NCBI RefSeq assembly: GCF_004135405.1 | Contig: NZ_CP035491.1 | Location: forward strand, 1-64,000 | Reading direction: 5' to 3' | Length of the DNA: 64,000 nt | Source of the DNA: Agromyces protaetiae | Lineage (GTDB): Bacteria; Actinomycetota; Actinomycetes; Actinomycetales; Microbacteriaceae | Shown: piece by piece, positions 1,011 through 63,300 of the stretch | Layout of the letters: every line of letters starts with the position of its first letter | Position numbering within the stretch: position 1 is the stretch's first letter | Program-made: the position numbers and the translations under genes | The notes under the pieces: model-generated | The model's input: only the letters and a program-made list of their open reading frames with translations | The model's database searches: none | Told to the model about the DNA's origin: nothing

Positions 1011-2135
1011 TCAGCGCGCCCTCGCGAGCGCGGCGCCCGCCGCCTCGAGGAAGCGCACGGCCTCGGAGCGCGCGGAGCGCGGGTCGCCTGCGAGCGAGGT
1101 CAACGAGACGGATGACTCGAAGCCCGAGGCATCCGGATCGGCGCCCTCGTCGATCACCCCCGCGACGAGCGCGACCGGCACCCCGGCGTGCGCAGCGAGC
1201 CGCGCGACCTCGGTCGGGGCCTTGCCCGCCTCCGACTGCGCATCGAAGCGGCCCTCGCCCGTGACGACGAGGTCGGCGTGTGCGATCGCTTCGGCGAGTC
1301 CGATCGCGCTCGCGACGACCGCCGCGCCCGACCCCATGCGGGCGCCCCACGCGAGCAGGCCGAACCCCGTGCCGCCCGCGGCTCCGGCGCCGGGTGCGTC
1401 GGCGAGTCGCCGCCCGCCGGGCACGAGCCCCGCGAAGCGGTCGAGGTTCGCCTCGAGAAGGGCGACGTCCGAGGCAGCCGCCCCCTTCTGCGGGCCGAAG
1501 ACCGCCGCCGCGCCCTGCGCGCCGAGGAGCGGATTGACGACGTCGCCGAGCACGGTCGCGCCGCCGGTCGGCAGGGGGCGGAGTCCCGTGAGGTCGACGG
1601 CCGTTGCGACCCCGAGCCCGCCGCCGCCGAGCGGAACGGGCGAGCCCGAGGCATCCGTCACCCGCGCGCCGAGCGCGACGAGGGCACCCGACCCTCCGTC
1701 GGTCGATGCACTGCCGCCGATGCCGAGGAGGAGTCGCGCGACGCCCGCGTCGAGGGCCGCCGCGATCGCGTCGCCGAAGCCCGCCGTGTGGGCCTCGAGC
1801 GGGCGCAGGGGGTCGACGAGCCCGAGCCCGCACGTCGCCGCGAGCTCGACGACGGCGGTGTCCCCGGGCAGCCGCAGCCACGACGACGACACGCGAGCAG
1901 CCCCCTCGTACGGCCCGCGCACGTCGACGGGCACGCGCACGGCGCCCGGCACGGCCGCCTCGAACGCGTCGAGCGTGCCCTCCCCGCCGTCGGCCATCGG
2001 CCGGAGCACCGCCTCGTCGCCCGGCCGCTCGGCGAGCCAGCCGCGCGCGAGCGCCGCCGCGGCGTCGGCGGCCGAGACCGTGCCCTTGAACGAGTCGGGC
2101 GCGAAGACGACGCGCCGCGGCCCCGCCTGCCTCAT
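1011..2135 (-). CDS. glxK: Glycerate kinase
   Basis: 374 residues, the normal length for the type I glycerate 2-kinase family (GlxK/GarK), which phosphorylates D-glycerate with ATP. Visible family marks are the N-terminal APDSFKGTVSA, RPMADGGEGTLDAF, LLGIGGSASTDGGSGAL, a GGTGFGLLAWG loop and VVTGEGRFDAQSEAGKAP. Its ATG overlaps the stop of the upstream ThuA-like gene by 4 bp (2132-2135), so the two are co-transcribed and translationally coupled. Together they may serve carbohydrate or glyoxylate turnover, but nothing else in the neighbourhood fixes the pathway. Confidence 0.92.
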   Translation of the reverse strand: MRQAGPRRVVFAPDSFKGTVSAADAAAALARGWLAERPGDEAVLRPMADGGEGTLDAFEAAVPGAVRVPVDVRGPYEGAARVSSSWLRLPGDTAVVELAATCGLGLVDPLRPLEAHTAGFGDAIAAALDAGVARLLLGIGGSASTDGGSGALVALGARVTDASGSPVPLGGGGLGVATAVDLTGLRPLPTGGATVLGDVVNPLLGAQGAAAVFGPQKGAAASDVALLEANLDRFAGLVPGGRRLADAPGAGAAGGTGFGLLAWGARMGSGAAVVASAIGLAEAIAHADLVVTGEGRFDAQSEAGKAPTEVARLAAHAGVPVALVAGVIDEGADPDASGFESSVSLTSLAGDPRSARSEAVRFLEAAGAALARAR

Positions 2136-2839
2136 GCGAGGAGCGCCGCGCTCGGCGCCGGCACGCGCTTCAGCCAGTCGAACGCACGCGCGAGGAGCTC
2201 GAGGTTGCCGGGCGACGCGTACGAGCGCTCGTCGTGGCCGAGCGCCGTGTAGACGAGCCGCGAGCGACCGAACTCGCGCGCCCACACGAGCGGATGCCGC
2301 ACCCCGCCCTCCTCGTGCTCGGCGATCGGCTCGATGACGTCGACGAGCACGAGGTCGGTGTACCGCTCGTCGAAGACGGCGAAGTCGGCGAGGCCCTCGG
2401 CGATGCGGTGATTGCCCACCACGTGCACGATCGCGTCGCCGATGGGCGGATGCCACGAGTGCTCGTGCACCCAGCGCGCTCCGAGCGCGGCCTCGAAGTA
2501 CGGCAGCTCACGCAGGGTCGAAGCCGCCGCGTGCACCGCGAGGATGCCGACGCCGCGTTCGATCGCCGCGTCGAGCGCCGTCGCGGCCCGCGCGACGACG
2601 GCGGGATCGGCGGGAGTCGGGGCCTCGCCTCCCCCGCCCGGCCCGTCGGGATCGCCCGCGTTGACGATCACGAGCGAGACGTCGTCGGCGAGCGCCGCGA
2701 GCCCGTCGAGGGGGTCCTGCACGATGTCGACGTCGAAGCCCGCGGCACGCGCGAGCTCCGCGAGCCGCTCGCTCGTCTCGGCGAACGGATGCCACGGGTC
2801 GGCGTTGCGTCCGGCTCCGCTCAGGATCACGGCGTGCAT
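2132..2839 (-). CDS. ThuA-like (trehalose utilisation family) domain protein
   Basis: 235 residues starting MHAVILSGAG. The sequence fits the ThuA-like fold, a glutamine-amidotransferase-like alpha/beta domain: an early strand and turn, VSLVIVNAGDP, GVGILAVHAAASTL, WVHEHSWHPP and LVYTALGHDERSY near the end, which corresponds to the family GHxxxSY segment. The biochemical role of this family is poorly known; it is often found near sugar catabolism genes. The start was chosen at 2839 because TACGAT ends 6 nt upstream (leaderless signal) and homology begins there; a long upstream extension in the same frame has no support. First gene of a two-gene unit with glycerate kinase. Confidence 0.85.
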   Translation of the reverse strand: MHAVILSGAGRNADPWHPFAETSERLAELARAAGFDVDIVQDPLDGLAALADDVSLVIVNAGDPDGPGGGGEAPTPADPAVVARAATALDAAIERGVGILAVHAAASTLRELPYFEAALGARWVHEHSWHPPIGDAIVHVVGNHRIAEGLADFAVFDERYTDLVLVDVIEPIAEHEEGGVRHPLVWAREFGRSRLVYTALGHDERSYASPGNLELLARAFDWLKRVPAPSAALLA

Positions 2840-2920
2840 GCCCGCATCGTATCGTCGGGCGGCGCGCGCCACGAGGCATCCGCCCTGTGGCTTCCCAGGG
2901 GCCGTCGCTACGCTGGGGCG

Positions 2921-4270
2921 ATGCCGTTCGACTTCCGTAGCAGCCCCGTGGACCGCGCCGCCGAAGTCTCCCTCGGAGCCCGCGGGCTCGAGTACCGGCT
3001 CGTCGACACGGCCGACCACGCGGCGTTCGACGCGTGGTCGCAGGCCGACAACCTCGCCTTCCATCACCCGCGCCCGCGCGAGATCGACCTCGAGCACGAG
3101 CGCCGGGTGTTCGCCGAGCGGCGCGTGATCGGCGTGTACGACTCGACGTCGGCACGCCCCGACGTGCCCGTCGCGACGGTCTCGAGCTGGCCGACGGGCC
3201 TCAGCATGCCCGGCGGCCGCAGCGTCGACGCGTGGGCCGTGAGCTCGGTGTCGGTCGCTCCGACGCATCGGCGCCGCGGCATCGCGCGCGCCCTCATGGA
3301 GGCCGAGCTCCGCGACGCCGTCGCCGCGGGCGCGGCGGTCGCGATGTTGACGGCGACGGAGGCGACGATCTACGGCCGGTTCGGCTACTCCCCCGCGGCG
3401 CGCGCGGCGACGGTGCACGTCGATCGGCGGCGCGCGCGGTGGAGCGGTCCGGATGCCCCGGGGCGCACGCATCTCGTCGATCCCGCGTCGCTCCGCGAGA
3501 TCGCGCCGCAGCTCGTCCGGCGGGCTGTCGCGCGCACGCCGGGCGAAGTCGACCGGTGGGGCGGACTCCTCGACCGCGTGCTCGGCCTCGTCGACCCCGA
3601 ATCGGCGGGCTCGCGGGCGGTGCGCGCCGTCCGGTACGACGACGAGCACGGCGAGCCGCAGGGCTTCGCGGCCTATCGCGTGACCCGCAACCCCAACGAG
3701 CCGGGCGTGCTCGAGTTCGACTTCCTCGCCGCGGCGACCGACGACGCCGAGCGGGCCCTCTGGCGCACCCTCGTCGAGGTCGACTTCGTCGACGAGGTGC
3801 GCGGGCTCCTGCGGTCGGTCGACGAGCCGCTGCCGTGGCTCCTCGACGATCCGCGCGCGATCGCCGTCGACCACCTCGGCGACCACCTGTGGGTGCGCGT
3901 GCTCGACCCCGTCGCGGCGCTCGGCTCGCGGCGGTTCGGCGCGGGCGGCACGCTCACGCTCGACGTCGACGATCCGCTCGGGTATGCGCACGGCGTGTTC
4001 GAGCTCGAGGTGTCGGGCGACGGCCGCGCCGAGGTGCGCAAGGTCGAGGACGCTCCGGATGCCTCGGCCGCGGGCTCCTCGCGGCGCAGCCGCCGCGCGG
4101 GAGGCCTCCGGCTCGGGGTGCGCGAGCTCGGCTCGATCCTCCTGGGCGACGTCGCGCCGTCGCTCCTCGCCCGTGCGGGCCGGGTGCACGAGTCGTCGGC
4201 GGGGTCGCTCGAGGTCGCCGATCGGCTGTTCCGATCGGCTCGCGCGCCGCACCTCTCGATCTGGTTCTGA
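2921..4270 (+). CDS. Eis-like GNAT family N-acetyltransferase
   Basis: 449 residues, typical of the Eis (enhanced intracellular survival) family: an N-terminal GNAT domain with the acetyl-CoA loop SVAPTHRRRGIARALM, a central second GNAT-like domain, and a C-terminal sterol-carrier-like domain. The polypeptide ends in Phe (LSIWF), matching the C-terminal Phe whose carboxylate is the catalytic base in Eis. Eis enzymes acetylate amines on aminoglycosides and polyamines or lysines; the substrate here is unknown. TACGCT ends 6 nt before the ATG with no ribosome binding site, so it is probably leaderless. It is divergent from the ThuA-like gene. Confidence 0.88.
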   Translation: MPFDFRSSPVDRAAEVSLGARGLEYRLVDTADHAAFDAWSQADNLAFHHPRPREIDLEHERRVFAERRVIGVYDSTSARPDVPVATVSSWPTGLSMPGGRSVDAWAVSSVSVAPTHRRRGIARALMEAELRDAVAAGAAVAMLTATEATIYGRFGYSPAARAATVHVDRRRARWSGPDAPGRTHLVDPASLREIAPQLVRRAVARTPGEVDRWGGLLDRVLGLVDPESAGSRAVRAVRYDDEHGEPQGFAAYRVTRNPNEPGVLEFDFLAAATDDAERALWRTLVEVDFVDEVRGLLRSVDEPLPWLLDDPRAIAVDHLGDHLWVRVLDPVAALGSRRFGAGGTLTLDVDDPLGYAHGVFELEVSGDGRAEVRKVEDAPDASAAGSSRRSRRAGGLRLGVRELGSILLGDVAPSLLARAGRVHESSAGSLEVADRLFRSARAPHLSIWF

Positions 4271-4718
4271 GGGCGGGCCGAGGCTGCTCGAACGCCCGCA
4301 GGGACCCGCCTCGAGGCATCCGATTGTTCTGATGTCTGTGTCAGTCGAGCCCGCTCGCGAACCCGTCACTCGATTGTCAGGTTTCCTGCCTGATTCCCCT
4401 GATCCGGAGACTTTTCGTAGGTTCGTGGTCGCGCTCTCAGGATCAGCGCCGAACCCGACACGCCGAGCTCGAAAATCGAATCGATCCGATCTTCGCGGCC
4501 GATGCCCCCACTTCGGGGCACATGCACCCCGCGACATCCGCGAACCCCGGCATTCCGCGGAACTCGCAACTTACTGACAAGTCAGTTAGTTGTGAAACCG
4601 TTACCTCGCTTTTGTTTCGGAGCACGCGAATTGGGTGAATCATGGGCACCGCCCCCGCCAAAGCCGACGGGGAGCACCACGAGGGGTCGACCTCACTTTT
4701 TTCGAGAAGGAGAGCGCC
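4271..4718. other. 448-bp non-coding leader/promoter region upstream of the sugar importer
   Basis: No convincing gene. The stretch is richer in A/T than its surroundings. It holds a GAGGCATCC motif near 4310, a short hairpin at 4504-4521 (TGCCCC, six-base loop, GGGGCA), and the dyad ACTGAC-AA-GTCAGT at 4573-4586 followed by GTGAAACCGTTAC, which could bind a LacI- or ROK-type sugar regulator. I could not place the promoter with confidence. Confidence 0.5.
4573..4586. promoter_or_regulatory. Perfect dyad, candidate operator of the sugar ABC operon
   Basis: ACTGAC, two bases, GTCAGT: a perfect 6-bp inverted repeat about 130 bp before the binding-protein start. The outer bases extend it imperfectly (TTACTGAC/GTCAGTTA). 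No regulator gene lies next to it, so a distantly encoded regulator is an inference. Confidence 0.4.
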
Positions 4719-5845: not shown

Positions 5846-5883
5846 TTGCACGTCGAGACATCCATGCACGCAAGGAAGCGAAC

Positions 5884-7973: not shown

Positions 7974-8006
7974 CGGATGCCCCGGGCGCGCTGCCCGGGG
8001 CATCCG
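7974..8006. terminator. Perfect 13-bp hairpin made of a GGATGCC/GGCATCC pair
   Basis: CGGATGCCCCGGG (7974-7986), a 7-base loop, and its exact complement CCCGGGGCATCCG (7994-8006). It lies between the convergent permease and AI-2E-type genes (stops at 7946 and 8030) and can terminate both. There is no U tract, which is common in high-GC actinobacteria. The arms each contain the recurrent GGATGCC motif of this genome. Confidence 0.8.
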
Positions 8007-9200: not shown

Positions 9201-10691
9201 TCAATCGCGCAGCCGCATCGGCTCGACGACCTCGAAGTCGAGCGTCCGCACCCACCGCGCATGCGTCTCATGGAATTCGGCGCGCGTCGAGAACCGGTAG
9301 TGCCACGCCTGCACGCGCACCCAGACCGGCGGCGCTCCGCCGAACGGGTCGTGCGCGAGGAGTCGCAGCGTCGGCCGGTCGGCCTCGAGGAGGCGCACGA
9401 GGAGCGTCTCGAACCACGGTTCCCAGAACCGCCCCAGCGGCAGGAACCACATGAGCCAGTCGAGCCGCAGGTGGTACGGCGCGAACCAGCGCGGGACGCG
9501 ATGCACCTCGCCCGGCTTCCCCCTGAACGCGTACTCGCGCCACTCGGCCTCGGGCGAGTCGGGGTCGGCGGCGAGCGTGCCCGCGACGACGATCTCGACA
9601 CGGCGCTTCGTGACGGTGCCGAAGGCCCCGTATGCGTTGCCGAGCATGTACCGGTTGAAGCTCGCGTTCATGAGTTGTCGGCGGGCGAGAAGGTTTCGGA
9701 GCGGCGCGATCGCGAGCCACAGGAAGAGGGCGGATGCCGCGAGCACGACGATCCCCCACCACAGGGGGATGCCCGAGGCATCCCGAGCCCCCGAACCGAG
9801 CGCCGAAGGCACCGCCGGCAGCCATCCGAGCGCCCATCGCCACGCCGAGTCGGAGACCGCCGACGCTGCGAGCACGACCGTGAGCCAGTTCAGCCACGCG
9901 AAGTTGCCCGTGACGATGAGCCACAGCTGCGTGAGCACGATGATCGCGGCGGCGACCGATGCGACCGGCCCCGGCACGAACAGCAGGAACGGCACGACGA
10001 GTTGCGCGACGTGGTTCGCGACGACCTCGCAGCGGTGGAACCACGGCGGCAGGAGGTGCGCCTGGCGACTCAGCGGCCCCGGCATGGGCTGGGTCTCGTG
10101 GTGGAACATGAGCGCCGTGAGGTCGCGCCACTCGCGCCCGCCGCGGATCTTGATCATGCCCGCCCCGAATTCGAGGCGGAAGACGAGCCACCACACCGCG
10201 ATGAGGACGAGGAGCGGCGGCGGCTCGTGCGCCGACCCGAGGAACGCGACCGTGAAGAGCGCTTCGCAGAGGAGCATCTCCCACCCGAAGCCGTAGAAGG
10301 TCTGCCCGACGACGACGATCGACAGGTACAGGGTCCAGAGCACGAGGAAGACGATGAGCGGCACCCAGGGCGGCCCGAGTTGCGGGAGGCCGAGGACGAC
10401 GGATGCGCCGAGCACGATGCCTGCCCAGGCGACGGCGACGAGCTTCGGGTCGCTGTAGCCCCACCACGCAAAGAGGCTCGGGCCGCGCAAGCGCCGCGCG
10501 CCGCCTGAGCCGCGCGCCGCCAGCAGCCGCGGCACCGGCAGCAGCCCGTGCTCGCCGAGGAGCGGCCGGAACTGGTTCAGCGTCGACACGAACGCGATGA
10601 CGGCGATCGCGGCGACGCCGCGCTGGAGGATCTCGCGCGCGATCCAGTAGTCGCGCGCGTTCAGCCAGTCGAGCCAGGCGACCGCCTCCAC
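9201..10691 (-). CDS. Lipase maturation factor family membrane protein
   Basis: 496 residues, GTG start. Homologous in pattern to LMF1/LMF2: an N-terminal amphipathic WLDWLNARDYWIAREILQRG, many membrane spans, the conserved WLVFRLEFGAGMIKIRGG, WRDLTALMFHHETQPMPGPLS and the C-terminal soluble part WFAPYHLRLDWLMWFLPLG. In animals LMF1 helps lipases fold in the ER; the bacterial role is unknown. The preceding Nudix gene ends 9 bp before its start, on the same strand, so they are probably one operon. The C-terminal third contains a membrane-proximal linker with repeated GGATGCC motifs. Confidence 0.88.
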   Translation of the reverse strand: MEAVAWLDWLNARDYWIAREILQRGVAAIAVIAFVSTLNQFRPLLGEHGLLPVPRLLAARGSGGARRLRGPSLFAWWGYSDPKLVAVAWAGIVLGASVVLGLPQLGPPWVPLIVFLVLWTLYLSIVVVGQTFYGFGWEMLLCEALFTVAFLGSAHEPPPLLVLIAVWWLVFRLEFGAGMIKIRGGREWRDLTALMFHHETQPMPGPLSRQAHLLPPWFHRCEVVANHVAQLVVPFLLFVPGPVASVAAAIIVLTQLWLIVTGNFAWLNWLTVVLAASAVSDSAWRWALGWLPAVPSALGSGARDASGIPLWWGIVVLAASALFLWLAIAPLRNLLARRQLMNASFNRYMLGNAYGAFGTVTKRRVEIVVAGTLAADPDSPEAEWREYAFRGKPGEVHRVPRWFAPYHLRLDWLMWFLPLGRFWEPWFETLLVRLLEADRPTLRLLAHDPFGGAPPVWVRVQAWHYRFSTRAEFHETHARWVRTLDFEVVEPMRLRD

Positions 10692-10700: not shown

Positions 10701-11444
10701 CTAGAAGTCGTTGAGGTAGATCCAGGGCAGGCGGTCCATCATGAGCCGGTGCCGGTTGCCGACGGCATCGGGCGCGTCGTCGGGCACGGCCGGATGGTCG
10801 TCGTGGTGCGGGTCGTCGTAGGCCTCGTCTTCCTTCCAGAAGATCGTCGTGCGGTCGTCGTTGAATCGCGACACGTAGGGCTGCACGTCGCCCACGGCGA
10901 ACTCGGCGAGCGCGTCGTCGACCGTCTTCGCCGGGCGGAGCCCCGCGAGCGTCACCCACGTCGGCGGCCAGAGCGTCATCGAGCCGGCCGCATGCCGGTC
11001 GAGCGCGTCCTGCGGCGTGAGCCATTCGAGCGCCATCACTTCGTCGGGCGACGGCTTCGTGCGCCCCTCGGGCGCGCGCGCCGCGAAGAAGGTCGTCACG
11101 AGGTGCTTGGGCGAGCCTGCAGGCGGCGTCCACTTGGAGAAGGGCACGAGGGATGCCTCGTCGACGACGAGCCCGACCTCCTCTTCGGTCTCGCGGGCCG
11201 CTGCGCGGCGGCTCGCCGCCTCGGAGGCGAGGTCGCCGCCGGCTTCGGCGACGGAGTCGGCGTCGGATGCCTCGACGAGCCCTCCCGGGAACACCCACGC
11301 CCCCGCGAACGAGCCGCGATCGCGAGGCCGCTCGATGAGGAGCACTTCGAGCCCGTGCGCGCCGTCGCGAAGGAGCACCACGGTCGCGGCGAACCCGTGC
11401 GTCGTGGCATCCGTCAAAGCGGACAGATCGGTCTCAGCGCCCAT
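10701..11444 (-). CDS. Nudix hydrolase (NUDT19-like with expanded Nudix box)
   Basis: 247 residues. The Nudix motif is present but split: GAWVFPGGLVEASDAD, then about 20 extra residues, then AARETEEEVGLVV, as in NUDT7/NUDT19-type CoA or nucleotide-derivative pyrophosphatases. The C-terminal region (YVSRFNDDRTTIFWKED) is not assigned. Start at 11444 was preferred over an upstream in-frame ATG at 11474 because TATCGT ends 7 nt before it. It precedes the lipase maturation factor homologue in a likely two-gene unit. Confidence 0.85.
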   Translation of the reverse strand: MGAETDLSALTDATTHGFAATVVLLRDGAHGLEVLLIERPRDRGSFAGAWVFPGGLVEASDADSVAEAGGDLASEAASRRAAARETEEEVGLVVDEASLVPFSKWTPPAGSPKHLVTTFFAARAPEGRTKPSPDEVMALEWLTPQDALDRHAAGSMTLWPPTWVTLAGLRPAKTVDDALAEFAVGDVQPYVSRFNDDRTTIFWKEDEAYDDPHHDDHPAVPDDAPDAVGNRHRLMMDRLPWIYLNDF

Positions 11445-11533
11445 GCCGACCACGATAGGGGCCGCCGCCGACACGGGCCTCCCCCTTGCGGACGGCCGTC
11501 CCGCGAGACATCCGCCGCGGCTACGCTCGTGAC

Positions 11534-12358
11534 ATGGACGCTCTCGGCGACGACATCGGCGAACAGGTCACCCGCTCGGCCCGGCTCGTGCTCGCGCCGA
11601 ATCCCGGCCCCATGACGCTCGACGGCACGAACTCGTACGTGCTGCGCGCGCCGGGCGCCCTGGGCGCCGTCGTCGTCGACCCGGGCCCTGCCCTCGACGT
11701 GCACCTCGAGCGACTCGCGGCGCTCGGCCCGGTCGAGCTGATCTTGCTGACCCACCACCACTTCGACCACACGGCGGGGGCCGCGCAGTTCGCCGCCATG
11801 ACCGGCGCGCCAGTCCGTGCGATCGACGCGGCGCTGTGCGTCGACGCGGCTCCGCTCGCCGACGGCGAGCACCTGTTCGTCGCGGGGCTCGACCTCGAGA
11901 TCCTCGCGACGCCGGGGCACACGGCCGACTCGATGTGCGTCTTCATCGCGGGCGACGGCCCGAAGCCGTCGGTGCTGACGGGCGACACGGTGCTCGGCCG
12001 CGGCACGACCGTCATCCTCGATCCCGACGGCGAGCTCGGCCCGTACCTGACGTCGATCGAGCGGCTCCGCCGCATCGGCGAGGCGGGCGGCGAGGGCGGC
12101 GACGGAGTCACGGCGCTCACGGGCCACGGGCCCGTCCTGCCCGATCTCGCGGCCATCTCGGCCGACTACCTCGCGCACCGCGCCGAGCGGCTCGACGAGA
12201 TCCGCGGGGCGATCGCCGCGCTCGAGCTCTTCGGGCAGGAGGTCACGCCCGAGGCGGTCACCGACGCCGTGTACGCCGAGGTCGACCCGTCGGTGCGGCG
12301 TGCCGCCGAGGCATCCGTGCGCGCACAGCTCACGTACCTGCGCACGCACGGCGCCTGA
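11534..12358 (+). CDS. MBL-fold metallo-hydrolase (LACTB2-like)
   Basis: 274 residues. Metal-binding motif THHHFDHTAG (HxHxDH), TPGHTADSMC, LTGDTVLGRG and LTGHGPVLPD give all expected metal ligands for a two-zinc metallo-beta-lactamase fold. The C-terminal winged-helix-like part (EVTPEAVTDAVYAEV) matches LACTB2-type proteins, some of which are single-strand RNases; the substrate here is unknown. TACGCT ends 6 nt before the ATG (leaderless). Divergent from the Nudix gene. Confidence 0.88.
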   Translation: MDALGDDIGEQVTRSARLVLAPNPGPMTLDGTNSYVLRAPGALGAVVVDPGPALDVHLERLAALGPVELILLTHHHFDHTAGAAQFAAMTGAPVRAIDAALCVDAAPLADGEHLFVAGLDLEILATPGHTADSMCVFIAGDGPKPSVLTGDTVLGRGTTVILDPDGELGPYLTSIERLRRIGEAGGEGGDGVTALTGHGPVLPDLAAISADYLAHRAERLDEIRGAIAALELFGQEVTPEAVTDAVYAEVDPSVRRAAEASVRAQLTYLRTHGA

Positions 12359-13627: not shown

Positions 13628-15192
<1,565 letters not shown>

Positions 15193-16157: not shown

Positions 16158-16172
16158 GGTTCGGATGCCTCG

Positions 16173-16757: not shown

Positions 16758-16837
16758 ACAGCGCACTTCGCGACCACAAGTGCCCACTGCTGGAAGGGAG
16801 CCGGGCGGACGCGCCGCATCCGCGGCAGGATGGGCGC

Positions 16838-17884
16838 ATGGACGCCCGTCAGGCCCTCGAAGAGATCGCGACACTCCTCGAGCGCGAGCTCGCGAACCCC
16901 TTCAAGGCGCGCGCGTTCCGCAAGGCCGCCGCGGCGATCGAGCCGTTCGACGACGCCGAGCTCGCGGCGCGCATCGCCGACGGCAGGCTCAAGCGCACCC
17001 CGGGCGTGGGCGACACGACGTACGCGGTCATCGTCGAGGCATCCGAAGGGCGGACGCCCGCGTACCTCGCCGACCTGCGGAAGCAGGCCGGGCTCACCCC
17101 CGACGGCGCGGGCGCCGAACGCACTGGCCTCTTCGCGGCGGCCCGCGGCGACCTGCACAGCCACACCGACTGGTCGGACGGGACGACGTCGATCGCGACG
17201 ATGGCGCGCGCTGCAGCCGACCTCGGGCTCGAGTACCTCGTCGTGAGCGACCACTCGCCGCGCCTCACGGTCGCGAACGGTCTCACGGCCGAGCGGCTCG
17301 CGGCGCAGCTCGAGATCGTCGAGGCGCTCGACGCGCTGCACGATTCAGCGGACGGCGCGCTCGGCATCCGCCTGCTGCCGGGCATCGAGGTCGACATCAA
17401 CGCCGACGGCACGCTCGACCAGACGCCGGAGATGCTGGATCGTCTGGCGGTCGTCGTCGCGAGCGTGCACTCCAAGCTGCGCGCGCCGAAAGACGAGATG
17501 ACCGAGCGGATGCTCCGTGCCGTCGCGAATCCGTACACGAACGTGCTCGCGCACTGCACCGGGCGCCTGGTGGCAGGCAATCGGGGCACGCGCCCGCCGT
17601 CGGAGTTCGACGCCGAACGTGTCTTCGCGGCGTGCGCCGAGCGCGACGTCGCCGTCGAGATCAACTCCCGGCCCGAACGCCAGGACCCGCCCGACGAGCT
17701 CATCGCCCTCGCGCTCGCGGCGGGCTGCCGCTTCTCGATCGACTCCGACGCGCACGCGCCCGGCCACTTCGCGTTCCTCGGGCTCGGCGCCGAGCGCGCT
17801 GCGCGCGCGGGCATCCCCGCGGAGCGCATCGTGACGACATGGGAGCTGCCGAGGCTCCTGGAGTGGTCGCACGCGAAGCGGTGA
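16838..17884 (+). CDS. PHP domain phosphoesterase with Pol X-like N-terminal helix-hairpin-helix
   Basis: 348 residues. Residues 1-85 resemble the 8-kDa/HhH part of family X DNA polymerases (NPFKARAFRKAAAAIE, RTPGVGDTTYAVIVE). From about residue 105 a full PHP domain follows: DLHSHTDWSDG, VVSDHSPRL, LPGIEVDINADG, VVASVHSK, NVLAHCTGR, VEINSRPERQDPP and SIDSDAHAPGH supply the trinuclear metal ligands. The polymerase domain of PolX is absent, so this is a stand-alone phosphoesterase, possibly acting on DNA ends or small phosphates. ATG 16838 was chosen, not the upstream 16703 start, since CAGGAT ends 6 nt before it and the upstream frame is repeat sequence. Confidence 0.87.
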   Translation: MDARQALEEIATLLERELANPFKARAFRKAAAAIEPFDDAELAARIADGRLKRTPGVGDTTYAVIVEASEGRTPAYLADLRKQAGLTPDGAGAERTGLFAAARGDLHSHTDWSDGTTSIATMARAAADLGLEYLVVSDHSPRLTVANGLTAERLAAQLEIVEALDALHDSADGALGIRLLPGIEVDINADGTLDQTPEMLDRLAVVVASVHSKLRAPKDEMTERMLRAVANPYTNVLAHCTGRLVAGNRGTRPPSEFDAERVFAACAERDVAVEINSRPERQDPPDELIALALAAGCRFSIDSDAHAPGHFAFLGLGAERAARAGIPAERIVTTWELPRLLEWSHAKR

Positions 17885-19237: not shown

Positions 19238-19311
19238 ACCCGCTATATGAGGCATCCTCAGTTCCTCGATAGGATGCGGCTACGCGTCACCGCCTGATCA
19301 GGGGAGCATCG

Positions 19312-41047: not shown

Positions 41048-41108
41048 GGCATCCGCCCCCGACATCCGGCCCGAAACATCCGGCCCGAGACATCCGCTCG
41101 TGACATCC
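41048..41108. repeat. Tandem ACATCCGGCCCGA-like units (GGATGTC array)
   Basis: Units begin at 41062, 41076, 41090 and 41103 (periods 14, 14, 13 bp), preceded by a GGCATCC at 41048. The reverse strand reads CGGATGTC repeatedly towards the oxidoreductase gene. It is the densest clustering of the genome-wide GGATGYC motif seen here and lies in a promoter region. Confidence 0.75.
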
Positions 41109-43585: not shown

Positions 43586-43635
43586 GAAGCACCGATCAGG
43601 CGGCGGATGCCTCGGCCACGACGTATCCTCGATCG

Positions 43636-46451: not shown

Positions 46452-47243
46452 CTAGCGCGCCCGCCAGTAGCCGCAGAATGCGACGTTCGCCTTCGGCACG
46501 CCCCACTCGTTCACGAGGTGGCGGCGCGCGCCGGTCGCGAGCTTCGACTCGCCGGCGGCGAATCCGACGACGGATGCCTCGGGGCGCGCGAGCTGGGCCA
46601 GCCGATCGAGCGCCGACACGCCCACGGGCGCTTCGCGCTCGCGCACGACCCAGTGCACCTCGACGCCGTCGGGGGCGCCGGTCTCCTGCCGGTCGGCGGC
46701 ATCGGGGAGCTCGACGATCGCGTCGCCGACGGCGTCGCGCGGCAGGTCGCGCAGGATGCCCGCGACGGCGGGCAGTGCGCTCTCGTCGCCGACGAGCAGC
46801 ACGCGGTCGGCCGCGACATCCTTGAAACCTCGGCCCTGGTCGATGAGACCGACGTGCGCGCCGACCGGGAGCGTGCCGGCCCACGGCCCGGCGACACCCT
46901 CGTCGCCGTGCACGACGAAGTCGATGTCGAGCTCGCGCACCTCGGGGCGGAACTCGCGCACCGTGTAGTTGCGGATGACGGGGCGGGTCGCCTTGGGCAG
47001 CGTGAGGTACTTGAGGTAGGCGATCGTGTTGAACGTGTCGGAGAGGTTGTCGAAGCGGGTCTCGTCGCTCGTCGGGACGGCGAGCCGGAACCACTGGTCG
47101 AACCCGACGTGCCGCCATTCGGCGAGCTCGTCGCCCGCGATCGTCAGCCGCACGAAGTGGGGCGAGATGTGCTCGGCGCGGGTGACCTCGGCGGTCACGA
47201 GACCGGTGTCGGCGTGAGAGATGGCGATGTTGCTCGAGGCCAC
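46452..47243 (-). CDS. Siderophore-interacting protein (FAD/NADPH ferric reductase)
   Basis: 263 residues. FAD-binding domain HFVRLTIAGDELAEW, RNYTVREFRPEVRELDIDFV, and NAD(P)H-binding domain RVLLVGDESALPAVAGIL, ending in CGYWR, as in ViuB/SIP proteins. It reduces ferric siderophores in the cytoplasm to free iron. GTG 47243 follows AAAGG; an upstream in-frame ATG at 47273 would sit inside the iron box and is rejected. A DtxR box (47259-47277) lies directly upstream. Confidence 0.9.
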   Translation of the reverse strand: MASSNIAISHADTGLVTAEVTRAEHISPHFVRLTIAGDELAEWRHVGFDQWFRLAVPTSDETRFDNLSDTFNTIAYLKYLTLPKATRPVIRNYTVREFRPEVRELDIDFVVHGDEGVAGPWAGTLPVGAHVGLIDQGRGFKDVAADRVLLVGDESALPAVAGILRDLPRDAVGDAIVELPDAADRQETGAPDGVEVHWVVREREAPVGVSALDRLAQLARPEASVVGFAAGESKLATGARRHLVNEWGVPKANVAFCGYWRAR

Positions 47244-47277: not shown

Positions 47278-48744
47278 CAAGACGATCCACCCCTGCACGA
47301 GACCGACGATGCCCACGACGGCGAGCCCGAGCGCGACGAGGAAGATCGCGAACTCGGCGAGCGTGAACACCCGCCGCCCCTGCTCGCGGCGGGCCATCGC
47401 GAAGAGGACCGTCCCGGGCGCGTAGATGATCGCCGAGAGCAGCACGTACGACAGTCCGGCCGCGAAGATGAGGAAGGCCGTGTACCCCGTTGCGAGGAGG
47501 CCCACGATCAGTTCGCGCGTCCGATGGCCCTGCACCGAGGCATCCGCCCCGTACCCGTCGCCGCGGATCGCGATCTTCAGCAGATACGCCGCCGACAACA
47601 GGAACGGGATGAGCGTGAGCGCACTCGTGAGCTCGAGGGCGAAGTCGAACGCGTTCGCCGAGAAGTAGGCGACGATGAGGATCGCCTGCGCGAGGAGCGT
47701 CGACGCGAGCAGCGCCGTCACGGGGACGTCGCGCGAGTTGACCCGGGCGAGGAAGCGCGGCATGTCGTGGTCGCGCGCCGCGACGAACATGACCTCGGCC
47801 GCCATGAGCGTCCACGCGAGATAGGCGCCCAGCACCGACACGATGAGCCCGATGCTCACGAACCACGCACCCCACGGACCGACCGCCGCCTCGAGCACGC
47901 CCGCCATCGACGGCTGGCGGAGCCTCGCGATCTCGTCGGCCGGGAGCACGCCGTACGAGACGATCGTGACCGACGCGAAGACCGCGAACACGCTCAGGAA
48001 TCCGAGCACGGTCGCCTTGCCGACATCCGACCGTTTCTTCGCATGCCGCGAGTACACGCTCGCGCCCTCGACGCCGAGGAACACGAAGACCGTGACGAGC
48101 ACCGTCGCGCGCACCTGGTCGAAGAGCGTGCCGTAGCCGACGCCCGACCAGTTCGACGCGAACGCCGCGGGGTCGAGCACGAAGAGGGCGAGGAGGACGA
48201 ACACGACGATCGGCACGACCTTCGCGATCGTCACGATGCGGTTGACCCCCGCTGCCGCCCGCACCCCGCGGCTCACGAGGAAGAAGAACGCCCACAACCC
48301 CGCCGTCGACAGCACGATCGCGAGCACCGTGTCGCCCTCGCCGAGCGCGGGCCAGATCGCGCCGATCGTCGACATGATGAGCACCCAGTACGTGACGTTG
48401 CCGAAGCACGCGCTCGCCCAGTACCCGAGCGCCGAGAAGAACCCGAGGTACTCGCCGAAGCCCGCCTTCGCATACGCGTAGATGCCCGCGTCGAGCTCGG
48501 GCTTCCGCGTCGCGAGCGCCTGGAACGCGAACGCGAGCATGAGCGTGCCCGTGCCCGCGATGAGCCACGCCGTGAGCGCGCCCGCGACGCCCGTCGCGGC
48601 GGCGAACGTGCGCGGCAGCGAGAACACGCCCGCGCCGACCATCGACCCGACGACCATCGCGGTCATCGTGGGGATGCCGAGCTTCGTGCCCCTGGGCGCG
48701 ACGGGTCGCGCAGTGTCGGAATCGGCGGTCTCGGAATCGGTCAT
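47275..48744 (-). CDS. APC family basic amino acid antiporter (arginine/ornithine-like)
   Basis: 489 residues, about 12 spans. VGSMVGAGVFSLPRTF is the APC signature in span 1, with LDAGIYAYAKAGFGEYLGF and FLGVEGASVYSRHAKKRSDVGKAT typical of the arginine/ornithine antiporter ArcD/YjdE group. Probably exchanges arginine and ornithine or agmatine, but no deiminase genes are near. It ends inside the iron box of the next gene but seems unrelated to it. Confidence 0.88.
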   Translation of the reverse strand: MTDSETADSDTARPVAPRGTKLGIPTMTAMVVGSMVGAGVFSLPRTFAAATGVAGALTAWLIAGTGTLMLAFAFQALATRKPELDAGIYAYAKAGFGEYLGFFSALGYWASACFGNVTYWVLIMSTIGAIWPALGEGDTVLAIVLSTAGLWAFFFLVSRGVRAAAGVNRIVTIAKVVPIVVFVLLALFVLDPAAFASNWSGVGYGTLFDQVRATVLVTVFVFLGVEGASVYSRHAKKRSDVGKATVLGFLSVFAVFASVTIVSYGVLPADEIARLRQPSMAGVLEAAVGPWGAWFVSIGLIVSVLGAYLAWTLMAAEVMFVAARDHDMPRFLARVNSRDVPVTALLASTLLAQAILIVAYFSANAFDFALELTSALTLIPFLLSAAYLLKIAIRGDGYGADASVQGHRTRELIVGLLATGYTAFLIFAAGLSYVLLSAIIYAPGTVLFAMARREQGRRVFTLAEFAIFLVALGLAVVGIVGLVQGWIVL

Positions 48745-51523: not shown

Positions 51524-52608
51524 AGCGCGCTCGCCTTGCGTCGGCGCACGAGCGCGATGAGGACGGGGGCGCCGACGAACGCCGTCACGATTCCGACGGG
51601 CAATTCGCCGCTCGGCAGGACGACGCGGCCGAGCACGTCGCTCGCGACGAGGAGCACGGGCGCGGCGACGGCGCTGCCCGCGAAGATCCAGCGCTGGTCT
51701 GGGCCGGTGAACCAGCGCACGGCGTGCGGCACCATGAGGCCGACGAATCCGATGGGGCCTGCGGCGGCGGTTGCGGCGCCGCACAGGAGCGTGACGGCGA
51801 CGATCGACACGACGCGCGTGCGCACGACCTTCGAGCCGAGCGCGACGGCGAGCTCGTCGCCGAGGGCGACGGCGTTCAAGGGCTTCGCGACGGCGAACGC
51901 GAGCACGAGGCCGACGGCGATGAACGGCAGGATGCCGAGCGTGAGTTCGAGCGGCGCGACGCCGACGCTTCCGGCGTTCCACCCCCGCATCCGGTTGAAC
52001 ACGTCGGGCAGGAGGAGCGTGATGCCCGACGTGATGCCCGACAGGAATGCGCCGATCGCGACGCCCGCGAGCGTGAGGCGGAGCGGGTCGGGGCCGCCGC
52101 GGCCCGTCGCGCCGATCGCGTAGACCGCGAAGGTCGCGACGATCGCCCCCGCGAACGCGAACCACACGGTGCCCGTCAGCGAGGTCATGCCGAACGCGGC
52201 CGCGCCGATGACGACGGCGAGCGCGGCGCCGTTGTTGACGCCGAGGATGCCGGGGTCGGCGAGCGGGTTGCGCGTGAACGCCTGCATGACGGCGCCCGCG
52301 ACGCCGAGCGCCGCGCCGACGGCGATGCCGAGGATCGTCCGCGGCACGCGCAGCTCGCGCACGATCGTCCCGGCCTCGTCGGCCGACCCCCCGATCGCGG
52401 CGAGCACCTCGTCGATCGACAACCCCTTCGATCCGATCGCGAGGCTTGCGACGCAGCACGCCGCGAGCGCGGCGACGACGAGTGCGAACCCGAGCGCGCG
52501 GCGGCGGCGCACGGCGGCTATGGCGCGGCGCGCCTCGCCGGACGCGGCGGCGGATGTCTCGGAGCTCGCGCTGCTCGAGACATCCGCCGTTCTGGTGTCA
52601 GAGCCCAT
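51520..52608 (-). CDS. Ferric-siderophore ABC transporter permease (FecC/FepD-like)
   Basis: 362 residues with a Ser/Ala-rich cytoplasmic tail (SSSASSETSAAASG) before the first span. RVPRTILGIAVGAALGVAGAVMQAFTRNPLADPGILG and GPIGFVGLMVPHAVR identify FecCD. The start overlaps the 3' end of the siderophore-interacting protein gene by 11 bp. A 14-bp perfect inverted repeat lies at codons about 7-21 (52548-52589). Confidence 0.92.
   Translation of the reverse strand: MGSDTRTADVSSSASSETSAAASGEARRAIAAVRRRRALGFALVVAALAACCVASLAIGSKGLSIDEVLAAIGGSADEAGTIVRELRVPRTILGIAVGAALGVAGAVMQAFTRNPLADPGILGVNNGAALAVVIGAAAFGMTSLTGTVWFAFAGAIVATFAVYAIGATGRGGPDPLRLTLAGVAIGAFLSGITSGITLLLPDVFNRMRGWNAGSVGVAPLELTLGILPFIAVGLVLAFAVAKPLNAVALGDELAVALGSKVVRTRVVSIVAVTLLCGAATAAAGPIGFVGLMVPHAVRWFTGPDQRWIFAGSAVAAPVLLVASDVLGRVVLPSGELPVGIVTAFVGAPVLIALVRRRKASAL
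52548..52589 (-). promoter_or_regulatory. Perfect 14-bp hairpin at the 5' end of the permease gene
   Basis: CGGCGGATGTCTCG (52548-52561) and its exact complement CGAGACATCCGCCG (52576-52589) with a 14-base loop. Both arms contain GGATGTC. In the mRNA the structure would form 20-60 nt after the permease start codon and could dampen expression of the three downstream genes relative to binding protein and reductase (inference). Confidence 0.6.
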
Positions 52609-55437: not shown

Positions 55438-57101
55438 GTGCCAGCACCGTCCCGCACTTCCCCCTCCCCCTCGCCCTCGTCTTCCGGGGCCGTCGGCTCC
55501 TCGTCGCCGCCGCGATCGCGGGGCTCGTCGTGCACCAGATCACCGAAGCGCTCGTGCCCGTCGTCGTCGGCATCGTCGTCGATCGCGCCATCGCCCCCGG
55601 CGACCCGACCGCGCTCGCCTGGAGCCTCGGCCTGCTCGCGGCCCTGTTCGTCGCGCTCCTCCTCGCGTGGCGCCTCGGCGATCTCGCCGCGTCGCGCGCG
55701 ACCGAGCACGGCGGACTCGCCGTCCGCCGCCGGCTCGTCGAGCGACTGCTCGCCCCCGCCGGATTCGCGGGACAGCGGAGCCCCGGCGACCTCCTGAGCG
55801 TCGCAGGCACCGACGTCGATCGCACCGCGGGCGTCGTGTGGGTCGTCGGCGGGGGTGCCGCGCAACTCGCCGCCGTCGTCACGGCGACCGTGTCGCTCCT
55901 CGTCGTGTCGGTGCCGCTCGGACTCATCGTGATCGTCGCGACGCCCGTGTTCGTCGCCCTCATGCACCTCGTCACCACGCCGCTCGAACGCCGCATGCAC
56001 GCCGAGCAGGCCGCCGCGGCGGCCGCGAGCGCGACGGCGGGCGACCTTCTGACCGGGCTCAGGACGATCGCGGGGCTCGGCGCCGAACGGGCCGCGATCG
56101 ACCGGTTCGAGGTCGCGAACCGACGGTCGCTGGATGCCTCGCGGCGGGCCGTGCTCGCGAAGGGACTCCACACGACCGCGAGCCTGTCGGGCGCCGCCCT
56201 CCTCCTCGCCGGCATCGCGTGGGCGGCCGCCGCCGAGGCCGCCGCGGGCACGATCACGGTCGGCGAACTCGTCGCCGTGCTCGGCCTCGCGCAGTTCGTC
56301 GCGTGGCCGGTCGGCGGGCTCGCCTACGTCGGGGCCGAACTCGCGACGGTGCGGGCCTCGGCGAAGCGCGTTCGGGAGGTGCTCGACGCCCCCGCCGCGG
56401 TCGAGGTCTCGACGACCGCGCGAACGAGCGCAGACCCCGACACATCAGACCCCGAGACATCCGCCCCCGATGTCGTCTTCGACGCACTCGCCACCCCGCA
56501 CCTCCCGTCGTTCTCCGCCCGGATCCCCGCCGGCTCCCTCGCCGCGGTCCGCGTCGCCGATCCGCGCGCCGCGCGCGAACTCGCGGGGGTGCTCGCAGGC
56601 GCCCGCACGCCCGACGCGGGCCGTGTGCTCGTCGGCGGCGCCCCGCACGCCCCCGGCGCGCCGCTCGTCCTCGCTCCTCCGCACGACGCGGCGCTCTTCG
56701 CGGGCTCGCTCCGCGACAACCTCGAACTGCACCGACCGCCCGTCGGCGACGCGATCGCCCGGGCCGTGCACGCCGCCGCGCTCGAAGACGTGGTCGGCGG
56801 GACGCTCGACGCCGCCCTCGAGCGCCCCGTCGGCGAGCGCGGCCTCACCCTCTCGGGCGGGCAGCGCCAGCGCGTCGCCCTCGCACGCGCGCTCGCCCGC
56901 GAGGCGCGCGTGCTCGTGCTGCACGACCCGACGAGCGCCGTCGACTCGGTCACCGAGGCGCGCATCGCCGAGCGGGTGGCCGCGCTCCGGGCCGGTCGCA
57001 CGACGATCCTCCTCACGACGAGCCCCGCGCTCGTCAACGCGTGCGACGTCGTCATCGACGTGGGCACGCCCTCATCGGTCTACGAAGGAGCCTCCGCGTG
57101 A
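55438..57101 (+). CDS. Exporter-fold ABC half transporter, subunit with degenerate ATP-binding site
   Basis: About 550 residues: a TM domain with six spans (RRLLVAAAIAGLVVHQITEALVP onward) and an NBD. Signature [14 protein letters not shown] is intact, but Walker A reads VADPRAARE, Walker B reads VLVLHDPTSAVD (Asp to His, Glu to Asp) and the H-loop reads TTS. So its own ATP site is dead while it still provides the signature for the partner. The coding frame from 55440 has no start before GTG 55530; a missing base just after GTG 55438 (GTG GCC) would give a full-length protein with a leaderless -10, so a -1 error is suspected. GTGA overlap with the next gene. Confidence 0.8.
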
Positions 57102-60098: not shown

Positions 60099-60177
60099 GC
60101 GCACCTCCCCGGTCGGACGCGATGCTCCGAGATGCATGCTACGGATGCCTCGGGGCCGGGCGCCAGACGATCACCCC

Positions 60178-60207: not shown

Positions 60208-60300
60208 CCCCTCGCCGCCCCCTTCCGACCGGATTACGCTCGGCCCCAGCGGGAGCGGCCGAGGGGTGCGGTCGCGCGGGTGCCCGCAGGCGGGGAACCC

Positions 60301-63300
60301 ATGCCCGAGATCGACGCACGATTCGCCGCGGCGATGGCGAACGTCTTCGCGCCCGCGGCGACGCTCGGGGTGCCGGCCCGCGACGTCCTCGGCCTGTTCG
60401 ATCCGGCGCTCGACGACGGGATCGACGTGGGGGCGCACCTGAATGAGTCGCTCGCGAGCATCCGCGTGCTCCGCACACGGGACCTCGTCGACGTCACCTT
60501 CCGCTTCTCGGGTCTCGCGCTCCGCGTCGACGAACGCGGCGGGCGCTTCCTCGTGCGCCGCGGCCGCGCGGCGGCGTTCCTCATCGCCGACTTCGGCCCG
60601 CAGCACCTGTACGAGCAGGCGTTCTTCGAGGCGGGCGGCGACGCCTCCGACTTCCTGAAGAACCCGCTCGCGCAGCAGCGCGCCGGGGTGCCGCCGACCT
60701 CGGGGACGCCCGCGCGCGACGTGCTGTCCAAGGCGATCCTCGCTCGCTCGAGCCGGCTCGTCTTCACGGTGACCGGGCAGCGCATCCCGTACTCGTCGGC
60801 GGGACTCCTCGCGGCGATGCGCGTGCTGCCGCTCAGCGTCGTGCCGCACGCGTCGCCGCCGCCGATCATCCTGGACTGGCGCGAGGTGTCGGGCGTCGTG
60901 TCGGTCGTGCGCCCCGATCGCCTGACCGCCATCGACCGGGCGATCGCGGGTGTGCGGCTCGCGCACACCGCAGACATCGTGCAAGCCCGGTTCGGGACGG
61001 CGAGCGCGGTCTCGGCCGTCTTCGACGACCTGTCGCCGATCGACTGGTACACGCCGTCGATCGAACTGCGTCCGCCCTCGCCGCGCCCGCCCGAGCAGAC
61101 CGAGACGGCGATCGAGCTGCCGTGGCGGCTGCAGCTCAGCCCGCACTCGCGCGGCGCGTTCGCGCACAGCCTCGACGAGGTCGAGCACGACGAGCGGGTC
61201 GAGTTGTGGCACACGAGGCTCGGCACCCGCATCGGGCAGGTCGACGAGGCCGCCGCCGTCGAGGCATCCGAAGCCATTCCCGCTCCCGTGAACGAATCCG
61301 ATCCGGGCGCGCGCACGGTGCGTGCGATCTGGACGCGCGACTACGACCGCGCGACCGATGCGGCCGACGAGTCGCGTGCGAAGAAGATCGCCGTCGACGC
61401 GGCAGCCGATCTCGCGAATCCGCAGCCGTTCCGCGGGTCGCTCTCACCGCGCGACCGCCGCCAGCTCGTGCATCTCACGAGCGACTTCCGCTGGCCGAAG
61501 TCGACGGGCGAAGACCGGTGGGAGCCGCGCGCGTTCCGCGCCGACGCGCTCATGCTCACCTCGCTCGGCGGGTGGCTGTCGGGCACGATGCAGATTCCGG
61601 GTGCGGTGCCTGCGGGGCTCTCGATCGAGGAGTGGACGCACCGCGCGACGATGGCGCGCGACCAGTACGTGAAGGTCGTGTACCAGGGGGTGCTGCTGCC
61701 GTTCGGGCATCGCGCGGCGCTCGTGAAGGTCACTGAGCGGCTCCTCCGCGACGGCGTCGCGCGACTCATCCAGCGCCTCTTCGTCATCGTCAAGCAACCC
61801 GAACGCAGCTTCCGTGCGAGCGGCGTGCCGGCGCTCGACCACCGGATGCCGTTCGGGTGGGTGCGGATCGTGACGCCCGGCACGCCGCCGCTCGCGCTGC
61901 CGTCGCAGATCGCGGGGGTCGTGGGCGGCTCGGCGTTCGTCCCGAGCATCCCGACGGCCGACGCCGTCGGGGCGGGCGGCGACCCGCCGACGGGCACGGC
62001 GCCGTTCCGGTTCCGGATGGTCGCGAGCGACGTCGAACACGGGCTCGTCGAGTTCGAGGGACCGCTCGTGTTCGTCGAGAAGACGGTGCTCGACCAGTCG
62101 GCGGGTGCGACCGCTGCGGCCTCGCTCGCTGCGCTCAACGGCGCTGTGCCGACGTTCGACCTGCGCGGCCAGCGCATCGCGTACGCCCCGCACGGCGACC
62201 CCGACGACACGACGCTCTCGACCGCATCGGCCAGGTTCGTGTCGGAGCCCGACCCCGGCACGGCGGAGCGGTACACGAACTTCGTGCTGCCGCGCCTGCA
62301 GGTGACGAACGCCGTCGTGCCCGCGATGAGCGCGTTCACGGGACAGAACGGGCCCGTGCCGCTGCGGTACCCGCAGGTGTTCGCCGACCACGGCCTCGAC
62401 ACGGCCGGGCGCAACCGGGGCGAGCTGTTCCTCGAGGTGTCGAACGCCTCGGGCGGCACGGCGACGGCCCCGAAGCCGATGGACTTCGCGAAGCAGTCCG
62501 ACCGATCGGGCGGGTTCCTCGCCCCGAGCGTCGCGATCAACTCTCTCGCCCGGCGACTGGGGCCCGTGGGCGGCGCGGTCGCCGCGCTCGACCAGAACCC
62601 CGCCGGGTTCGATGCGGGATCGATGTTCCCGCCCGACATGGCGAAGCTCTTCGGCATCCTGTCGCTCCGCGACCTGCTGCCCGATGCGGGCAGCCCGCTT
62701 CCGAAGTTCGCGACGCAGGCGGTCGACACGGTCGTCACGATCCAGACGGCGATCGTGCGCCTCCAGCAGCTCGACCCGGTCGCGGCGCTCGCGGGGCAGG
62801 CGCAAGCGATCCAGGATGCCGCGGGGTCGCTCGTCGACCGGATCGAAGCCCTCGCCGACGCGGTCGCGGCGCTCGGCGCCGACCCAGCCGCATCCCCCGA
62901 CCTCGACGGCATCCTCGGCGACCTCGGGGCCGCCGCCCGCACGCTCGCAGACGGCTGGAACGGGTTCGCGCCGAGCCTCGGCCTGCCGCGCGCGCACGTC
63001 GAACAGCTCGAGGGCGTCATCCGGAAGCTCTCCGACCTGAGCGACGACGTCACTGCCGTCGCGAAGGCCGTCGAGGCGTTCTTCCGCGGCGAGCTCCTGC
63101 CGCAGTCGATCGACGCCCGGCTCGAATGGTCGACCGAGCTCACGGCCTGGCCCCCCGGGGCATCCGTCTTCGAGCCCAAGGGCGATCGCACCCTCCGTCT
63201 CGTCGCCGAGACGAGCGCACCGCTCCGCCCCGGCGGGACGCCGACGGCGCTCGTGTCGTGTTCGCTGCCGCCCTTCGAACTGCGACTCGTAGGCCCCGAC

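Follow-up and report, generated by a model that had tools for sequence, protein, structure and literature searches.

The first 64 kb of the single 3,683,091-base contig of Agromyces protaetiae (GC 71.6%), i.e., the whole stretch of 64,000 nucleotides referred to here as the window, are strewn with a short asymmetric word that recurs through the entire genome with the consensus CGAG[G/A]CATCCG, in numbers far beyond what composition and codon use predict. Judging from the sequences at hand, this word is probably, at roughly 55%, a DNA uptake sequence of the kind found in Neisseria and Haemophilus, which would have accumulated by preferential uptake and recombination. Its size, density, balanced strands, inverted pairs, effect on the proteome, tolerance of substitutions, and dialects among relatives appear to resemble closely those of DNA uptake sequences.

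An earlier note on this DNA had counted by eye about 75 copies of GGATGCC and about 30 of a 9-mer in the window, and both figures hold: GGATGCC occurs 84 times, where dinucleotide shuffles yield 10.7 and a third-order Markov model predicts 21.6, and the 9-mer GAGGCATCC occurs 33 times, where they give 0.5 and 1.5, so that the enrichment outlasts the Markov null that had been named as its possible refutation. The variant GGATGTC behaves alike, as had also been claimed (37 copies versus 11.0 under the Markov model). Over the 3.68 Mb of the genome the two strands hold 846 and 888 copies of GAGGCATCC, 1,734 in all, and 4 + 4 of the reversed word used as a control. The form of the word was derived from a 464-kb sample, namely the window plus 20 further 20-kb stretches spread across the genome, to which the counts in this and the next paragraph refer. 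The logo from its 219 copies of GAGGCATCC reads CGAGGCATCCG, and the flanks outside this 11-mer carry at most 0.17 bits per position; AT-rich flanks, such as the uptake signal sequences (USS) have, were not seen around these 219 copies. Tolerance depends on the position within the 11-mer. Variants are enriched at position 5 (A in 64 copies versus 1.1 expected, T in 16, C in 8), at position 3 (23–33 copies each), at positions 1 and 11, and, for A, at position 4, substitutions within CATCC occur as often as expected or nearly so, and no variant of the G at position 2 occurs in the sample. The main enriched unit is the 9- to 11-mer and not the 5-mers embedded in it: GCATC shows no excess (2049 versus 2073 expected), and CATCC lacking G[A/G] directly 5' is raised 1.4-fold (859 versus 624). 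Both GGATG/CATCC and GCATC are type IIS restriction specificities, and the enrichment is not borne by such a 5-mer itself, a result that speaks, for these 5-mers, against the methylation signal proposed earlier.

Inside genes the word overrides codon choice. Synonymous codons were shuffled 100 times within each of the 445 genes called in the sample by a simple caller of our own, and GAGGCATCC was found in 94 sense and 64 antisense copies, compared with 3.8 and 3.1 after shuffling and with 9 and 8 in the largest shuffles. In total this makes 158 copies versus 6.9, an excess of about 21-fold that survives the codon-based null in its synonymous version. The wording described before, GAT GCC TCG or GAG GCA TCC with codons that the genes otherwise avoid, is borne out as well: GCA makes up 6.7% of alanine codons, and yet GAG GCA TCC spells 72 of the 114 EAS tripeptides (0.9 expected from codon usage), GAT GCC TCN spells 53 of the 104 DAS tripeptides (3.8 expected), and the codon pair GCA-TCC appears 141 times versus 11 expected. 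These two frames, EAS and xDAS, hold 125 of the 158 coding copies. The tripeptides themselves are overrepresented, EAS about twofold (114 occurrences versus 50–66 for its permutations) and DAS with 104 versus 37–72, and for this reason the word seems to act on protein sequence as well as on codons. Its density is higher between genes than within them (0.97 versus 0.40 per kb), and the sites at 4313, 16163, 43605, and 60143, which had been described as intergenic, all lie between called genes.

The two orientations are balanced, in agreement with the earlier claim (chi-square 12.5 over 21 loci, P 0.92, in a test independent of the origin position), and there is no polarity with respect to replication. 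The sites are spaced almost exponentially, and the only phasing is a slight surplus of distances under 60 bp (26 versus 14.1). A tandem run of 17-bp units, each with GGATGTCTCG, lies at L010:6880-6973 (G and L numbers are our handles for genomes and loci) and supplies, from 6880 onward, five of the seven listed spacings of 17–18 bp. Genome-wide, there are 19 exact inverted pairs of the form GGATGCCTC-N1..15-GAGGCATCC, with none in the control, and 7 of the 13 relaxed pairs in the 464-kb sample fall within 80 bp after a stop codon, so that in its own genome the word combines an intergenic excess with inverted pairs near gene ends. The pair at 7975-8005, which the earlier note had called a perfect terminator at 7974-8006, does lie between two converging genes and folds into a 13-bp stem with a loop of 5 nt, but "perfect" is too strong because no T run follows the stem and because the arms read GGATGCCCC. 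The sites in the window are given below; they are exact matches unless listed as a variant or an inverted pair, and "intergenic" means between called genes.

1126..1134, plus: CGAGGCATCCG
1648..1656, plus: CGAGGCATCCG
2873..2881, plus: CGAGGCATCCG
4057..4065, minus: CGAGGCATCCG
4313..4321, plus: CGAGGCATCCG, intergenic
5855..5863, plus: variant CGAGACATCCA, intergenic
7975..8005, no strand: inverted pair GGATGCC...GGCATCC, 13-bp stem, converging gene ends, no T run
9775..9783, plus: CGAGGCATCCC, exact match belonging to an inverted pair (9767-9783) within a called gene
11151..11159, minus: CGAGGCATCCC
11265..11273, minus: CGAGGCATCCG
11505..11513, plus: variant CGAGACATCCG, intergenic
12308..12316, plus: CGAGGCATCCG
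14304..14312, plus: GGAGGCATCCT, intergenic
16163..16171, minus: CGAGGCATCCG, intergenic
17036..17044, plus: CGAGGCATCCG
18261..18269, plus: CGAGGCATCCA
18950..18958, plus: CGAGGCATCCG
19149..19157, minus: AGAGGCATCCA
19249..19257, plus: TGAGGCATCCT, intergenic
22742..22750, minus: CGAGGCATCCG
23967..23975, plus: CGAGGCATCCG
24063..24071, plus: CGAGGCATCCG
25367..25375, plus: CGAGGCATCCG
26009..26017, plus: CGAGGCATCCG
28264..28272, minus: variant CGAGACATCCG
29337..29345, minus: variant CGAGACATCCG
29467..29475, plus: CGAGGCATCCG
32776..32784, minus: CGAGGCATCCA
33017..33025, minus: variant CGAGACATCCG
36209..36217, plus: CGAGGCATCCA
38515..38523, minus: CGAGGCATCCG
41087..41095, plus: variant CGAGACATCCG, intergenic
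42113..42121, plus: GGAGGCATCCG
43605..43613, minus: CGAGGCATCCG, intergenic
45042..45050, minus: CGAGGCATCCG
46572..46580, minus: CGAGGCATCCG
47537..47545, plus: CGAGGCATCCG
52552..52585, no strand: inverted pair of variant CGAGACATCCG, 12 bp past the stop of gene 52598-53497 (minus) and within the start of gene 51520-52608 (minus)
56132..56140, minus: CGAGGCATCCA
56454..56462, plus: variant CGAGACATCCG
60143..60151, minus: CGAGGCATCCG, intergenic
61261..61269, plus: CGAGGCATCCG

Absence of enrichment from related genomes had been named as a further way to refute the signal; instead, the word or a dialect of it is enriched in 11 of the 15 family genomes sampled. Copies of GAGGCATCC range from 134 to 1,734 per genome across 37 genomes of the genus, in which the reversed word never exceeds 11, and from 5 to 48 in 23 genomes from other families of the order, and they are patchy over 199 genomes of the family. 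A low count mostly does not mean that a genome has no word of its own, as is seen from words derived de novo in 100–120 kb of each genome, with a third-order Markov model as background. The 15 family genomes treated in this way, our own included, comprise 11 with GGCATCC-type words, one with GCGCCTCCT, and three with neither strongly (G069, G110, and G216). The words form dialects with a common core: CGAGGCATCCG in G004, CGCG[G/A]CATCCG in G010, CGGCATCCAC and GGCATCCGCAC in G017, CG[G/T]CATCCG in G005, GCGGCATCCGCC in G187, GGCATCCGT and CGGCATCC in G116, GGCATCCGTC in G112, CGGCATCC in G065, and GCGGCATCCGC in both G138 and G164. In G168 the core itself is altered to GCGCCTCCT, a GCCTCC word; G110 has only a weak CGATCCGC, the sample of G216 contains no strong word, and the small genome G069 has no excess of GGCATCC (15 versus 14.3). 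GGCATCC reaches 2.9 to 4.6 times its expectation in ten family genomes of the first de novo set, and stays near expectation in three outgroup genomes (19 versus 22.0, 22 versus 16.2, and 28 versus 21.3). The 134 copies of GAGGCATCC in G017 exceed the reversed control, yet not the Markov expectation of that genome (2 versus 3.9 in the sample), and over the 37 genomes of the genus GAGGCATCC tends to be rarer where GCGGCATCC is commoner (Spearman -0.48, P 0.003).

Relative to the synonymous shuffle, the GGCATCC-type words of the ten relatives that carry them are enriched 3.4- to 16.6-fold; the ratios are 2.0–3.2 for G168, 2.3 for G110, 1.5–1.6 for G216, and 3.5 for the top word of G069, while the top words of the outgroups G038, G040, and G049 give 6.5, 2.5, and 2.1. 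The ratios of the relatives are inflated because the words shuffled were the top words of the same samples; the word of A. protaetiae was picked from the window and then tested anew in independent stretches and genome-wide. Since 23 contig-start loci had almost no homology with the window, orthologous sites were compared at the com locus. In its alignment from six members of the genus, where numbers are small, most core sites are not shared: our genome has 31 and G004 has 22, with 9 common to both, and the sites common to ours and to G017, G010, G033, and G023 number 3, 3, 2, and 5, respectively. Some shared sites differ by dialect, e.g., CGAGACATCCA in our genome and CGCGGCATCCG in G010. Counts for named groups come from 27 of 80 loci, in twelve such groups, obtained from a contig scan with the PilT of A. 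protaetiae, whose best named relatives include Leifsonia (67% identity), Cryobacterium, and Homoserinibacter. Seven Cryobacterium loci, orthologous to each other so that the counts repeat, contain 102 copies of GGCATCC versus 29.1; the single or paired loci of Leifsonia (13 versus 7.5), Microbacterium (11 versus 6.3), and Homoserinibacter (9 versus 6.4) are less clear.

The evidence for depletion of the word from foreign DNA is mixed. Two Curtobacterium phages and three Microbacterium phages, whose hosts may have other dialects, together contain 57 copies of GGCATCC versus 44.4 expected (Min1 16 versus 10.6, Shayna 12 versus 10.6, CliffHanger 13 versus 9.6, Quenya 10 versus 6.8, and SanaSana 6 versus 6.8). 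An island at L017:1-13400, which encodes an MT-A70 protein and a type IV secretion (conjugative) coupling protein, has no GAG[A/G]CATCC, compared with about 9.5 expected at the mean density of the sample, and two GGCATCC. No plasmid of the family was present among the 25 of 72 matches listed in a tblastn search with an island protein, and none was counted.

The genome encodes machinery that could take up DNA. ComEA (SLBB and HHH_3) directly precedes ComEC (PF03772 and a metallo-beta-lactamase domain), DprA is present, and a tad locus near 3.53 Mb has matches to T2SSE, T2SSF, and TadE together with a short DUF4244 protein of Flp-like look; a second T2SSE-T2SSF pair lies near 2.19 Mb (3.8 kb viewed). 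There is also a type IVa pilus cluster at 1487860-1500591, with PilB, PilT, PilC, four pilin-like proteins, PilD, PilM, PilN, and PilO; ten of these eleven proteins were compared with Pfam, of which eight matched, and PilN and a 596-residue pilin-like protein did not. GAG[A/G]CATCC has no copy in the four pilin-like genes. By eye, the cluster (L104:13860-20000 and L105:1-6591) lies downstream of rpoB- and rpoC-like genes. Competence genes were rejected as a discriminator, as they offer no contrast: ComEC occurs in 195 of the 199 family genomes and DprA in 16 of 16 checked. PilM exceeds the cut-off in 97 of the 199, and the median density of GGCATCC is 695 per Mb in these and 390 in the others (n=97 and 102, P 2e-7), with G132 (E 0.001, below the cut-off) taken as negative. 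The type IVa pilus was dismissed as a general reader because many motif-rich genomes have none; PilM is absent from the word-rich G004, G008, and G164 and from all three g79 genomes drawn. Likewise, T2SSE was checked in 24 genomes, of which 11 are rich in the word but have no full-length PilB, i.e., none over 400 bits (G004, G008, G010, G017, G116, G184, G236, G164, G119, G113, and G066). Ten of these 11 have at least two T2SSE matches over the cut-off, the second of G119 being partial, and G066 has one; from their scores, rather than their neighbors, these matches are probably of the Tad type. Transformation of Micrococcus luteus requires comEA/EC and two distant tad loci (PMC4322843), which makes Tad with ComEA/ComEC a better general candidate than the type IVa pilus.

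If the word is an uptake sequence, a DNA receptor of the natural-transformation apparatus would read it, DNA that bears it would be taken up more often and recombine into the chromosome, and biased transfer could thereby have produced the accumulation that we observe. The receptor of each lineage may read a slightly different word, which would leave the dialects seen around a common core, and DNA that has not passed this filter should hold little of the word, as is partly seen. The uptake machine would likely be the pair of Tad/Flp pilus loci with ComEA/ComEC, as in Micrococcus luteus; the type IVa pilus of A. protaetiae itself might also serve, yet not as the general reader. The uptake-like signal suggested by the earlier note is upheld as far as anatomy goes (size, density, strands, intergenic excess, inverted pairs, dialects, and weak enrichment in the five phages).

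Several observations weigh against this explanation. We know of no sequence-specific uptake in Gram-positive bacteria, and no protein that ties to the dialects was found as a receptor. The presence of the machinery does not predict the word: ComEC, DprA, and T2SSE ATPases are near-universal, the three outgroups without an excess of GGCATCC have DprA and T2SSE, and G216 has a type IVa pilus, ComEC, and DprA yet no strong word. The association with PilM is weak in genomes of at least 2.5 Mb (769 versus 463 per Mb, n=87 and 62, P 0.009), and PilM is missing from 23 genomes with more than 700 GGCATCC per Mb, a few of which are incomplete. As to foreign DNA, the shorter GCATCC is raised in two M. 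foliorum phages (Quenya 37 versus 18.9, SanaSana 28 versus 18.5), as is GACATCC in Min1 (19 versus 9.3), the Wadjet island at L013:1-18200 keeps four GAG[A/G]CATCC and 17 GGCATCC, and genes of low GC at third codon positions (GC3) are not depleted of the word across GC3 quintiles of the 464-kb sample. Among relatives, the intergenic excess is absent in G065, G138, and G164 and for one of the two words of G116; the ratio of 6.5 in the outgroup G038, which may have a word of its own, means that such ratios are not unique to the word of this family and that those of the relatives alone are no proof; and seven orthologous loci of Cellulomonas, outside the family, contain 41 GGCATCC versus 18.7, which weakens a strict limit to the family.

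Among the other explanations, we consider it unlikely that an orphan methylase reads the word and that repair near the methylated sites creates or keeps it, with other methylases in other lineages, as for the highly iterated palindrome HIP1. Cyanobacterial HIPs are frequent, replace one another between lineages, and accompany cognate methylases (PMC4390886), and position-dependent tolerance would also suit a reading enzyme; the word here is, however, non-palindromic, and the unit enriched is mainly the 9- to 11-mer rather than CATCC without G[A/G] or GCATC. Phages are little enriched, a weak test with DNA that is only briefly resident and hosts whose dialects may differ, so that the evidence against a methylase, from the phages as well as from the lack of a palindrome, is not decisive. 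A site for an abundant nucleoid or chromosome-organizing protein, with a specificity that drifts between species, would account for a word present on both strands in all 21 of 21 loci of the genome, spaced almost exponentially and denser between genes. We find it doubtful to a high degree, given that the word accompanies altered protein sequence, which a freely placeable binding site does not need, that most core sites of the com locus are not common to the six genus members, and that phasing is limited to the slight excess below 60 bp.

Very little speaks for a Chi-like recombination hotspot or a segregation signal like the FtsK-orienting polar sequences (KOPS), beyond the fact that such words are likewise short, overrepresented, and lineage-specific. 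Chi and KOPS are oriented with replication, and an orientation bias along the replichore is their defining property, whereas the chi-square of 12.5 over 21 loci reveals no strand polarity, as the earlier note had argued. That the word merely results from codon use, from runs of amino acids, or from a mobile repeat is hardly credible: the concentration of coding copies in the frames EAS and xDAS is what such an origin would produce, but the 21-fold excess remains after synonymous shuffling, there is an excess between genes, and the 219 copies share at most 0.17 bits per position outside the 11-mer.

Should the word be an uptake sequence, the preference of Neisseria and Haemophilus for DNA of their own kind, whose reason has long been debated, would gain an independent, unrelated parallel, with many genera, dialects, and shifts within one genus. 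Natural competence would be predicted across the family, the word would become a readable marker of the partners in DNA exchange, and its receptor could be found by matching dialects to variants of pilins or ComEA. Going by the literature searched, and as far as we know, it would also extend sequence-specific DNA uptake beyond the Proteobacteria for the first time, with transformation shaping codons and proteins throughout the family, a proposition to which we give slightly less than even odds. If the words are not uptake sequences, codon choice in the family is still overridden by a strong force acting genome-wide, for which another cause must be sought.

Other repeats and elements were encountered alongside the word. 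The 464-kb sample also has an excess of the HIP1 palindrome GCGATCGC (392 versus 168), which is among the top four 8-mers in two of the five phages. Clusters of TTTGTCGGACA, a separate repeat with direct and inverted copies whose neighbors are 19 bp apart, have a similar layout at four places (window 16683-16770, L002:4671-4750, L004:2363-2440, and L010:16126-16205), and its 11-mer GTCCGACAAAC occurs 16 times in the same sample versus 0.03 expected. G038 (L077–L081, another family of the order) has a different abundant word, CGACGCCGTC, which may reflect something comparable outside the family (22 coding copies versus 3.4 in the synonymous shuffle), and ACACCGAT is enriched in G069 (L092–L096), with 25 coding copies versus 7.2. 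A Wadjet-type defence operon (PADLOC models JetB2, JetC2, and JetD2) lies at L013:3750-10269 near a phage-integrase-family protein.

No prior report of the word was present among the matches listed in the literature searched, a scope that mostly excludes subscription journals and preprints, and we know of no uptake word in Micrococcus luteus. The terms "uptake sequence" and "sequence-specific" are absent from the text of PMC4322843, and a text search of PMC8467076 finds no uptake-sequence terms. M. luteus is, like A. protaetiae, an actinobacterium with comEA/comEC, having two distant tad loci where we see one tad locus and a distant second T2SSE-T2SSF pair (PMC4322843). The cyanobacterial HIP1 and alternate HIPs are likewise frequent short words that others replace in other lineages, but they are palindromes tied to methylases (PMC4390886), and the word here is asymmetric. 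The USS of Pasteurellaceae is a 9-bp word with hundreds to thousands of copies, there tied to competence (PMC1626085, PMC2346458), although the word and the phylum are different. A close parallel is the DNA uptake sequence of Neisseriaceae, a word of about 10 nt highly repeated within and between genes, with inverted pairs linked to terminators and eight dialects around a short invariant core (PMC3630211). The word of A. protaetiae shares the length, the placement in and between genes, the inverted pairs, and the dialects around a core, and it differs in being an unrelated word, with a core of CATCC rather than CTG, and in belonging to high-GC Gram-positive bacteria. In Neisseriaceae the receptor, ComP, is a minor pilin (PMC6370729), whereas many motif-rich genomes here are without a type IVa pilus.

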